A stretch of 64,000 bases of DNA from Candidatus Saccharimonadota bacterium (GTDB lineage Bacteria > Patescibacteriota > Saccharimonadia > Saccharimonadales > Saccharimonadaceae), in the NCBI GenBank assembly GCA_017531585.1, contig JAFXKT010000001.1:372001-436000 (forward strand), in the 5' to 3' direction. Below are positions 22,003-25,744 of the stretch, in pieces. A model generated the notes under the pieces. The model did not search any database, was not told the DNA's origin, and worked only from the letters and a program-made list of their open reading frames with translations. Every line of letters starts with the position of its first letter. The stretch's first letter is position 1. Both the position numbers and the translations under genes were made by a program.

Positions 22003-23595
22003 ATGAAAAACAAAACTAAGTATATCTTTGTAACTGGTGGAGTTATCTCAGGCGTCGGTAAAGGCATTATGGCCGCAAGTATCGGCGCTATTTTAAAGGC
22101 CAAGGGTCTTAAGGTGTCGATGCAGAAATGTGATCCTTATTTTAACGTCGATGCAGGTCTTCTAAATCCACGCGAGCATGGCGAATGTTACGTTACGCAG
22201 GATGGCGCCGAGACAGATTTGGATCTTGGTCACTATGAACGCTTCCTAGACGAAGAAATGACCGGTGATTCTATCTGGACCTCTGGTAAGCTTTACAAGA
22301 CTCTTATTGATGCTGAGCGCTCTGGTAAATTTGGCGGCAAAACCGTTCAGCTCGTTCCTCATGTCACTAGCTTGATTCAGAAGACTTTCATTGATAACAC
22401 TGAGCATTTTGATTCCGATGTTCATATCGTAGAGATCGGCGGCACCGTTGGCGATATTGAGGGTTTGCATTTTATCGAAGCAATCCGTGAATTCTCGACA
22501 AAGGTCGGCCGCGAGAATTGTCTCTATGTCCACGTTTGCTTCGTGCCTTGGCTTGCAACTTCTCAGGAGTTTAAGACAAAACCAGCTCAGAACTCGCTTC
22601 GCGATCTTCGCGAATTTGGTATTGTGCCGGATATGGTAGTTGCTCGTATGGATGTTAGCGAGACGCCTGATGCTCCGCATATCGCGGCAAAGCTAGCCAC
22701 TTTCTGCGGCGTTAGTGAAGATGCCGTAGTTCTAATGCCAGATGCAAAGAGCGTTTACGAAGTTCCTCTAAATGCTGTTCGTGGTGGCGTGCTTGCTCCA
22801 CTAGAACGCTTTATCGATCATGGTGAGCCAGATATGAGCAAGTGGGAAAAGCTCGTCGCGGCTATTGAATCCGATCCAAAAGAAGAGGTAAAGATTGGTC
22901 TTGTCGCAAAGTATGTAGACAATACCGATACTTATCTATCTGTTACTGAGGCTCTAAAGGCTGCTGCTTGGAAGGTTGGCGTAAAGCTAAAGACTGTTTG
23001 GATTAATGCTGAGGAAGCAAAAGAATCCGACTTTGAAGCTGTTGATGGTATTGTTGTTCCTGGTGGCTTCGGTGTCCGTGGTGTAGAGGGCAAGATTGCT
23101 GCAGCTACGTATTGTTTGAAGAATAATAAGCCATATCTTGGTTTGTGCCTTGGCATGCAGTGTGCTGTTATTGCGGCTGCTCGTATTGGTGGTATCAAGA
23201 AGGCAAATTCTGAAGAGTTCGGTGCTGAAGAAGGCGAAAATGTTGTCTATATCATGGAAGGTCAAGAGGGTAAGGAAAGTACTGGCGGCACAATGCGCCT
23301 AGGTAACTATCCTGCCAAGCTCGTTAAGGGCTCAAAGATGGCAGAGATTTATGGTGCAACTGATGTTGTAGAGCGTCATCGCCATCGTTATGAAGTGAAT
23401 CAGGCTTTCATTAAGGAGATTGAAAAAGGTGGTTTGAAGATTTCTGGTACAAGCCCAGACGGTTCTTTGGTAGAGTTTATTGAAGCTCCAAAATGCGACT
23501 ACTTTGTAGCAACTCAGGGTCATCCAGAATATAGAAGCAGGCCATATCGTGCTCATCCGCTATTCGAGGGTTTGATCAAGGCTGCAAAGAAATAA
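22003..23595 (+). CDS. pyrG: CTP synthase
   Basis: Makes CTP from UTP with glutamine and ATP. 530 residues with both domains: amidoligase (VTGGVISGVGKG at residue 8 as P-loop; FVPWLATSQEFKTKPAQ) and class I glutamine amidotransferase (PYLGLCLGMQ with the nucleophile Cys; GHPEYRSRP with the His-x-Glu pair). The ATG at 22003 is chosen over an upstream in-frame TTG because MKNKTKYIFVTGG is the usual N-terminus and GAGGAGG lies upstream. De novo pyrimidine genes are absent from the window, so UTP is probably salvaged. Confidence 0.97.
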   Translation: MKNKTKYIFVTGGVISGVGKGIMAASIGAILKAKGLKVSMQKCDPYFNVDAGLLNPREHGECYVTQDGAETDLDLGHYERFLDEEMTGDSIWTSGKLYKTLIDAERSGKFGGKTVQLVPHVTSLIQKTFIDNTEHFDSDVHIVEIGGTVGDIEGLHFIEAIREFSTKVGRENCLYVHVCFVPWLATSQEFKTKPAQNSLRDLREFGIVPDMVVARMDVSETPDAPHIAAKLATFCGVSEDAVVLMPDAKSVYEVPLNAVRGGVLAPLERFIDHGEPDMSKWEKLVAAIESDPKEEVKIGLVAKYVDNTDTYLSVTEALKAAAWKVGVKLKTVWINAEEAKESDFEAVDGIVVPGGFGVRGVEGKIAAATYCLKNNKPYLGLCLGMQCAVIAAARIGGIKKANSEEFGAEEGENVVYIMEGQEGKESTGGTMRLGNYPAKLVKGSKMAEIYGATDVVERHRHRYEVNQAFIKEIEKGGLKISGTSPDGSLVEFIEAPKCDYFVATQGHPEYRSRPYRAHPLFEGLIKAAKK

Positions 23596-23603
23596 GACTA
23601 ATA

Positions 23604-23629
23604 AATACCGCCTATCTGGGCGGTATTTT
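23604..23629 (+). terminator. Terminator after pyrG
   Basis: AATACCGCC-tatct-GGGCGGTATT followed by a short T run, eight bases past the stop. Confidence 0.85.
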
Positions 23630-23636
23630 GTTGGGT

Positions 23637-23817
23637 AAAAAAGTGGGCAGTCCGTTTGGGCTGCCCGATAGATGGTAGAACGTTGCCGCCTGAGGCGGAA
23701 GAGAGAAGTCGCCTCAGGCAACAATGATTGGAGAATGGCGGATGATCCGCCGTGTATGTTCCCAATGGCAAAGGAACAAATTCGTTTGCGTGGTAATGGG
23801 TAACCGTGCAAACGTTC
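23637..23817 (-). ncRNA. Candidate structured small RNA, about 181 nt
   Basis: On the minus strand a full promoter is followed by four successive hairpins: CGTTTGC/GCAAACG, GTTCC/GGGAAC, GGCGG-atcat-CCGCC, and a long one with TGAGGCG/CGCCTCA extended by TTGCC/GGCAA. It ends in a terminator, GGGCAG-cccaaacgga-CTGCCC, with a TTTTTT run. A reading frame starting at the ATG next to the -10 box has no ribosome binding site and would start upstream of the predicted RNA 5' end, so I favour RNA. It does not match 6S, SRP, tmRNA or RNase P signatures that I know. Confidence 0.6.
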
Positions 23818-23822
23818 GCCAT

Positions 23823-23851
23823 ATTATATCAGAAAAATGAGATTATTGCAA
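23823..23851 (-). promoter_or_regulatory. Promoter of the 181-nt candidate RNA
   Basis: TTGCAA (23846-23851), 17-base spacer, TATAAT (23823-23828) on the minus strand. Predicted start near 23817. Confidence 0.7.
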
Positions 23852-23867
23852 GACGAAAGCAGGAGAT

Positions 23868-23986
23868 AAAAAAATGGACGGCAGATTCGCCGTCCTCAAA
23901 ACAAAACAAAAGAACATGTCTAGAACAAAAGAAAGGAGACAACGTCGCCAAATGTCTAGAAATGTAGACACCCGTGAACAGGCGAC
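23868..23986 (-). ncRNA. Candidate trans-acting small RNA, about 119 nt
   Basis: The minus strand gives a 5' hairpin (GTCGCC...GGCGAC with inner TGTCTA/TAGACA), a CU-rich unpaired stretch containing GTCTCCTTTC, and a terminator GGACGGC-gaatct-GCCGTCC with a seven-T run. This is the standard layout of a trans-acting small RNA, and the CTCCTTTC core is complementary to ribosome binding sites. No open reading frame with a ribosome binding site is present. Confidence 0.55.
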
Positions 23987-23992
23987 AATAAA

Positions 23993-24021
23993 TTTATATC
24001 ATAAGTTTGATAATTTTGCAA
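23993..24021 (-). promoter_or_regulatory. Promoter of the 119-nt candidate RNA
   Basis: TTGCAA (24016-24021), 17-base spacer, TATAAA (23993-23998) on the minus strand. The same -35 hexamer and spacing occur at the 181-nt RNA promoter. It is divergent from argS. Confidence 0.6.
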
Positions 24022-24061: not shown

Positions 24062-25744
24062 ATGGATAAACTAAAGACGCAGATTACAGAAGCAATTAAA
24101 TCTCTGTATGATATCGACGAAACTGCCGTTGAGTTCTCAGAGGTTCCTGCGGATATTGCAGGTGATTATTCCACGAACGTAGCAATGCGTATTGCTAAGC
24201 GTGCTCAGAAAAATCCGCGTCAAATCGCCGAGGAAATTATTGCAAAGCTTGGTGACGACTATACTTTTACTGTTGCTGGTCCTGGCTTTATTAACGTAGA
24301 AATCTCTTCAAAGAAGCTACAAGAGAAACTTGCGAACGAATTTAATGAGAATTATGGTTGCAATGAAAGTGGTAAGGGAAAGACTGCAATTGTAGAATTC
24401 CCAAGCACGAACATGGCAAAACCTTATTCGGTCGGACACTTGCGCCCTGGTACTCAGGGCTGGGCAACAAAGAAGCTGCTCGAAGCTAATGGCTGGAAAG
24501 TCATAACGGACAACCATCTTGGTGATACTGGTACGCCTTTTGGTGTTTGGGTTGTTGGTTTCTTGAGAAGTGGTAAGAGCCTCGATGATGTTACGATTTA
24601 TGATCTTGGCCAGATTTATATTGATACCAAGAAGGCTTTGAAGGACGAAGCTGCTGAAGAGAAGCACGAGCTTGCTGATGAAGTTCAGGAATGGCTCAAG
24701 AAACTCGAGGCCAAAGATCCTGAAGCCGTTAAGTATTCCGAGCGTTTTAATACGATTTCTTTGAATCATATTCATAATGTCATGAAGCGCATGGCTATCA
24801 GTACCGATTTGGAGCTTGGTGAAAGTTTTTATGCAGAGCCAGGCAAAGCGCTTGTTCAAAAATATTTGGCAGAAGGCAAGTTCGAACAGAACGATGATGG
24901 TTCGGTGATTTGCCGCTTGGATGAGTTTGGCATTGATGTTCCGATGCTTGTTCTAAAGAGTAATGGTACGGCGCTTTATGCAACGACGGATCTTGCTTGT
25001 ATGTTCTATAGGGCAGAAAATTACAAGCCAGATTTGGTTGTCTATTGTGTTGGTGCAGAGCAGAAGTTTTACTTTGAACAATTATTTGCCATGGGTAAGA
25101 AGCTTGGCGTGCCACAGGAAAACTTTCATTTATGGTTCGGTACAATCGATCAGGTTACCGAGGAAGGCAAGCGCGAGAAGATGTCTAGCCGTAAGGGCGT
25201 AGTGTTGCTTGAGGCGATGCTTGACGACGCAGAAGCAAGAGTGCGCGAGAATTTCTCTGGTAGCGAGCTTAGCGACGAAGATATTAGAAAGATTGCTACT
25301 GGCGCGATTAAGTTTAGCGACTTTGTGGCCGATAGGAAGACTGGTATCCTTTATGACCCAAACAAGATTTTTGCGCTTACTGGTTTTTCTGGTCCATTCT
25401 GCCAGTACGCCGATGTGCGTCTAAGAAGGATTCTTGAAAAGAATAAAGATTTTGTACGAGTTGACTTTTCTGATTATGATTTCGAGGCAGAAAAGGAACT
25501 TTTGATTTGTCTAAATAAATTCCCAGAACTTGTTTCGAGTATTGTAGAGAAGCTAGAGCTTCACAAGATTGCTGGCTACTGCTTTGAGCTTGCTCAGATT
25601 CTTAATCGTTATTACGAAAAGACGCCAATTATCCAGGCGGACGATAAGGAACGTTCTGCACGTTTGTGGTTAGTTGAGAAAGCAGATTATGTACTTGCTA
25701 AGGCGCTCGATCTTCTAGGCGTAGAGATTCCAGAAAAGATGTAA
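24062..25744 (+). CDS. argS: Arginyl-tRNA synthetase
   Basis: Class I synthetase of 560 residues. The N-terminal additional domain is followed by the HIGH-type motif in AKPYSVGHLRPGTQG (residues about 119-133), the catalytic core and the KMSKS-type loop KMSSRKG (about residue 373). The C-terminal anticodon-binding helical domain ends the chain, with FCQYADVRLRRI as the family's conserved entry. Promoter is leaderless-type: TAAAAT (24050-24055) ends six bases before ATG, with no ribosome binding site. The window also holds three arginine tRNA genes. Confidence 0.97.
   Translation: MDKLKTQITEAIKSLYDIDETAVEFSEVPADIAGDYSTNVAMRIAKRAQKNPRQIAEEIIAKLGDDYTFTVAGPGFINVEISSKKLQEKLANEFNENYGCNESGKGKTAIVEFPSTNMAKPYSVGHLRPGTQGWATKKLLEANGWKVITDNHLGDTGTPFGVWVVGFLRSGKSLDDVTIYDLGQIYIDTKKALKDEAAEEKHELADEVQEWLKKLEAKDPEAVKYSERFNTISLNHIHNVMKRMAISTDLELGESFYAEPGKALVQKYLAEGKFEQNDDGSVICRLDEFGIDVPMLVLKSNGTALYATTDLACMFYRAENYKPDLVVYCVGAEQKFYFEQLFAMGKKLGVPQENFHLWFGTIDQVTEEGKREKMSSRKGVVLLEAMLDDAEARVRENFSGSELSDEDIRKIATGAIKFSDFVADRKTGILYDPNKIFALTGFSGPFCQYADVRLRRILEKNKDFVRVDFSDYDFEAEKELLICLNKFPELVSSIVEKLELHKIAGYCFELAQILNRYYEKTPIIQADDKERSARLWLVEKADYVLAKALDLLGVEIPEKM

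Follow-up and report, generated by a model that had tools for sequence, protein, structure and literature searches.

Small RNAs that pair with Shine-Dalgarno (SD) regions have been described in Gram-positive bacteria, such as the CU-rich/C-rich LhrC of Listeria (PMC4132741) and RoxS/RsaE of Bacillus and Staphylococcus, whose type of regulation has also been discussed for species in which no hub protein like Hfq is known (PMC8216469). In the part of the literature that we covered, no published description of Saccharibacteria small RNAs was found. The locus studied here is the minus strand of a 466-nt spacer between pyrG (plus strand, ending at 23595) and argS (plus strand, starting at 24062). 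It lies in a window, the whole analysed stretch of 64,000 nucleotides, which is part of the genome of a tiny, parasitic Saccharibacterium of animal guts, read as one 456-kb contig (G000, contig C4). The closest named relatives are the MAGs CAMNAK010000002.1 (L011) and JAUMYE010000064.1 (L012), and ruminant guts are the source of many related MAGs.

Two conserved units between pyrG and argS

Two tandem minus-strand units had been predicted in this spacer from the letters alone, and re-reading confirmed their coordinates and sequence, their promoters of TTGCAA, a 17-nt spacer and a TATAAA or TATAAT box, and the stem-loop with a T-run at both 3' ends. The promoter of unit 1 (23993..24021, minus strand) has TTGCAA at 24021-24016 and TATAAA at 23998-23993 and is kept in L011 and L012, and that of unit 2 (23823..23851, minus strand) has TTGCAA at 23851-23846 and TATAAT at 23828-23823. 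An extended TG (TGATATAAW) marks both -10 boxes as well, a feature absent from the original prediction. The terminator of unit 1 (23868..23895, minus strand) pairs GGACGGC with GCCGTCC (23895-23876) ahead of seven T, and that of unit 2 is a hairpin at 23666-23645 on the same strand followed by six T. When the spacer was dinucleotide-shuffled 4000 times, a promoter-terminator unit of such stringency appeared once and a pair of units never, although the strict terminator rule recovers only unit 1 because the terminator hairpin of unit 2 has an interior loop.

Unit 1 (23868..23990, minus strand) would give a noncoding RNA of about 120 nt and unit 2 (23637..23818, minus strand) one of about 180 nt, and both fold more stably than shuffles (z of -4.3 and -8.2, respectively). 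Folding places a 5' hairpin in unit 1 (GTCGCC...GGCGAC with inner TGTCTA/TAGACA; 23944..23986, minus strand), then the unpaired core TGTCTCCTTTCTTTTGTTCTA (23921..23941, minus strand) and the terminator; inside the core, by complementarity, lies the anti-SD stretch CTCCTTTC (23931-23938, minus strand), which in the predicted folds of all three species that carry the unit is about 80% unpaired. The simple fold with this 5' hairpin, as first proposed, is present, but a competing fold lies about 3 kcal/mol away because TTCTAGACAT occurs in two copies. The description of unit 2 as four hairpins is right for its junction of four, which is closed by GAAC/GUUC, while the terminator hairpin makes a fifth; unit 2 exposes UCUCC and CUUCUCUCUUC. 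In the gap between unit 2 and pyrG, an inverted repeat, AAATACCGCC/GGCGGTATTT (23603..23628, no strand assigned), is probably the pyrG-side terminator, and the palindrome is also present elsewhere in relatives. A promoter closely resembling that of unit 2 (TTGAATAATCTCTGCTTTTGTGATATAAT) was also seen in genome G004 (L007:1500-1590), ahead of a stretch with a AGAAGGAGGAAG ribosome site and an ATG.

Unit 1 differs from L011 and L012 at 4% and 2% of sites and unit 2 at 3% and 3%, whereas the flanking pyrG and argS differ at 17-19% of their fourfold-degenerate sites (Fisher p = 6e-10 and 4e-14). In L012, the part of the spacer near argS was less conserved (87%) than both units. Open frames of 74 and 83 aa over unit 2 and of about 40 aa over unit 1 could be taken for small proteins; however, the frames read through the terminators, the start codon of the 74-aa frame is gone in L011 (ATG to ATA), most substitutions sit in loops, and in L011 a hairpin of unit 2 has exchanged one closing A-U pair for G-C, so that translation of these frames is scarcely credible. 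The relatives display conservation of structure rather than of coding, one of the checks that the original prediction had named. On the sequence comparisons, both units are very probably noncoding RNA genes under purifying selection, transcribed away from argS.

The distribution of the two units is narrow. Covariance models and DNA searches found both in only 3 of the 45 genomes of the genus, all of them sister species, and no homologs elsewhere in the genus, the weak matches of the unit 1 model (R2) being chance-like. Among 393 genomes of the class, the core pattern with up to three mismatches returned the three sister species and one further genome (G085, three mismatches, chance-like), and no relatives of unit 2 were detected outside the three-species clade. 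In the next relative (L013) the gap between pyrG and argS is only 48 bp.

In many other relatives, a TATAAT-type promoter and something else occupy the strand divergent from argS. One such occupant is another noncoding RNA, about 270 nt long (L034:5556-5780, minus; L080:1255-1570, plus; L083:1358-1640, minus; L114-L116 are the same sites as L034, L083 and L080), in which the middle varies, a hairpin with covariation (GCCATGC/GCATGGC versus GCCGTGC/GCACGGC) precedes GGCAYCTCC, and the terminator is conserved; it had no Rfam match. A second, unrelated noncoding RNA family with two members fills the first 440 nt upstream of argS, again on the divergent strand, in L125 and L133, where TACTCCTTTC and AATCACCACACA are kept amid otherwise diverged sequence. 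Since GGCAYCTCC and TACTCCTTTC belong to different families, unrelated RNAs in one slot appear to repeat an anti-SD-like motif, a pattern that is suggestive. In further loci (L117-L119, L128-L132, L135, L136), a small protein is encoded in the slot, with a strong promoter, an AGGAGG-type site and a 5' UTR some 50-200 nt long; an RGLxP-like stretch is common to several of these proteins, and the two tested had no significant Pfam match.

A phage leader RNA with the core of unit 1

The core TGTCTCCTTTCTTTTGTTCTA was found exactly in 26 IMG/VR phage contigs and GTTGTCTCCTTTCTTTTGTTC exactly in ten, counts that include near-duplicates and are not independent, whereas a control 20-mer from unit 2 had no IMG/VR match and a 19-mer had two unrelated ones. 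In the phages a promoter comes first, in most cases then a 5' hairpin, and after these the core, the linker and a GC hairpin; unit 1 shows the same order in the same orientation. The covariance model of unit 1 matches the phage leaders across model positions 48-115 (about 68 nt), with E-values as low as 2e-6, so the similarity takes in the linker and the hairpin as well as the core. The terminator hairpin of unit 1 is the counterpart of the second phage-leader hairpin: unit 1 has GGaCGG/CCGuCC where the phages have GGuCGG/CCGaCC, a compensatory A-U/U-A exchange. Core probes with N inside brought back the same IMG/VR contigs and no genuine internal variant; a shorter core probe added three genuine loci, changed at the 5' edge only, and two more that seem unrelated. 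In collections of phage and plasmid records the core had no match beyond short ones that look like chance, and the unit 2 model (R1) had no match in the phage loci or in the spacers of relatives.

The core of unit 1 is thus identical to that of a leader RNA of tailed phages, to which unit 1 is by sequence homologous. Conservation of unit 1, which within the class is confined to three species, therefore reaches well outside the phylum, and a regulatory RNA common to viruses and an unrelated bacterium seems to be present. Clear phage homology together with a narrow distribution would also be expected of a leftover late-operon leader retained by chance, but in two sister species the divergence is 4-10 times under that of fourfold sites and both promoter and terminator are intact, which makes such a remnant very improbable.

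Downstream of the phage hairpin stands a tRNA in 19 of the 26 contigs (Met in 15/26, Leu in 2/26, Ser in 2/26), a tRNA-like element in five and a terminator in two. In three of the five contigs with tRNA-like elements (L140, L142, L148) we observed, in place of a tRNA, a helix of 12-13 bp with a TTCACGT or TTCATGT loop, that is, a minimal acceptor/T-arm, with CCA on the minihelix of L142 and L148; L149 and L153, read by eye, hold longer tRNA-like sequences. ARAGORN calls no tRNA at any of these five elements. The remaining two contigs (L155, L156) have a hairpin and six T after the core, just as unit 1 ends in a terminator with no tRNA behind it, so a downstream tRNA or tRNA-like element is not a strict requirement of the phage leader. 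Several hundred bases past the core, L155 and L156 also show a row of short promoter-terminator units resembling a small-RNA array.

The phages that carry the core differ in terminase sequence, and the genes downstream of the element, read by eye, are clearly different in L142, L146 and L153. In L146, the element lies between a phage transcription regulator and the terminase genes, and the terminase (TerL) is nearest to those of phages of Terrisporobacter, Clostridioides and Streptococcus, i.e., of Firmicutes type. This affiliation bears on a defensive role, in which unit 1 would imitate the phage leader and, as a decoy, draw off a phage factor or partner. Unit 1 is sense-identical, not complementary, to the phage leaders and is limited to one small clade, both of which would suit a decoy, but the L146 terminase indicates Firmicutes phages rather than phages known to infect Saccharibacteria, and we regard this role as quite improbable.

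The surroundings of the phage copies could also be read as a nut/boxA-like site for a NusB-S10-type complex, which in the phages would shield the untranslated tRNA and the late operon from termination and would leave unit 1 as a decoy or conditional attenuator before unit 2. The 3' half of the core, UGUUCUACACA, has a resemblance to lambda boxA that serves as a lead, and a hairpin comes after it; tRNAs lie 3' of many copies, and the L146 copy, downstream of the regulator, heads the terminase operon. However, in L155, L156 and unit 1 a terminator directly follows the element, the conserved part also has UCCUUUCUUU, which is not known from any boxA, and read-through would be needless for unit 2 because it has its own promoter. 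A boxA-like function is, on these grounds, unlikely.

Proposed action of the two RNAs

RNase P cuts tRNAs, and acceptor/T-arm minihelices as well, at their 5' side. Given this cleavage, and since a tRNA, a tRNA-like element or a terminator stands behind every intact phage copy, we infer that the RNA is likelier to act in trans than to be purely a signal in cis. Pairing in cis between the phage core and sites downstream of it reached 7-9 nt at most, which is uninformative. The RNA freed in the phages would be hairpin-core-hairpin, much like unit 1, and unit 1 itself is, on balance, probably a free trans-acting small RNA.

As to its mode of action, the CU-rich stretch had been proposed to pair with ribosome binding sites. 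The stretch is predicted to be unpaired and CTCCTTTC complements GAAAGGAG exactly, a signal enriched before starts in the genome of the window, but its predicted pairing does not exceed that of shuffles: a target search over the start regions of 404 genes, one of the kinds of check that the original prediction had called for, gave energies no stronger for unit 1 than for shuffled unit 1. The core also contains CUCCUUUC, which is complementary to the words with the strongest enrichment before starts (AAGGAG, AAAGGA, GAAAGG), a result that is partly circular, as start sites were picked partly by SD score. The anti-SD was inferred from these start-site words because the 16S 3' end, searched for in these assemblies, was not found. 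We prefer SD pairing as the mode because CUCCUUUC complements the start-enriched words, and hold it tentatively, as a reading that may well be wrong; a core that is identical in different phyla would fit a conserved protein or rRNA partner at least as well as many mRNA sites.

In the mechanism that we propose, the two hairpins of unit 1 would protect its ends and hold open the pyrimidine-rich element (core UGUCUCCUUUCUUUUGUUCUA), which would pair without Hfq with SD regions of the GAAAGGAG type and block ribosome loading, and leaderless mRNAs would be spared. In the phages, RNase P would cut the RNA free at the tRNA or tRNA-like element 3' of it, and in Saccharibacteria the intrinsic terminator would take over this release. 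Unit 2 would be a separate compact RNA that may act similarly through UCUCC and CUUCUCUCUUC, with less support. Taken as a whole, namely two RNA genes of which unit 1 acts in trans by SD pairing independently of Hfq, the explanation is plausible while falling a little short of probable. The wider proposal is more doubtful: a small-RNA family with an invariant element of about 20 nt would be common to Firmicutes-type phages and a Saccharibacterium, released in the phages from tRNA or tRNA-like precursors and in the bacterium from a terminated gene, and acting in both on the translation machinery through an anti-SD.

Comparison with described RNAs

A search of Rfam 15 at gathering and relaxed thresholds, covering the window, six phage loci and the spacers of relatives, returned tRNAs only and nothing credible, and in the literature we found no description of the core string or of boxA/late-operon leaders matching the phage element. 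Membership of an Hfq-dependent class was rejected, as no match to Hfq (PF17209) was found in the window's genome (99.6% complete), where positive controls were recovered. Unit 2 is similar in length to 6S RNA, but is a junction of separate hairpins instead of one long bulged hairpin, and with no RF00013 match in the genome, 6S identity was likewise discarded. In kind, unit 1 appears to be a CU-rich regulatory RNA, and in family it appears to be new and shared with phages. Two small RNAs of Saccharibacteria are, in our view, defensible from substitution rates and structure.

Among known phage signals, the nut/boxA sites of the lambda family likewise consist of a short unpaired element with a hairpin behind it, close to the start of a phage operon, but the core in unit 1 and the phages is much longer, and a terminator comes directly after it in unit 1 and L155. 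The position of the phage element, immediately before tRNAs or acceptor/T-arm minihelices, is that of the 5' leader fragments that RNase P releases from tRNA precursors; ordinary fragments of this sort do not keep an exact sequence, however, and in unit 1 no tRNA comes next. This position beside tRNAs and tRNA-like elements suggests a way in which phages could produce a stable small RNA with no need of a terminator. With LhrC and RoxS/RsaE, unit 1 shares a promoter and terminator of its own and hairpins exposing a CU-rich stretch that could pair with SD regions, but it has no sequence or Rfam relation to them and its core is longer (about 20 nt). In essence, the core of unit 1 is exact across phyla and phages whereas the UCCC-type seed of the LhrC/RsaE kind is not, and an element of about 20 nt that is identical in phages with differing terminases and in another phylum points to a partner common to both.
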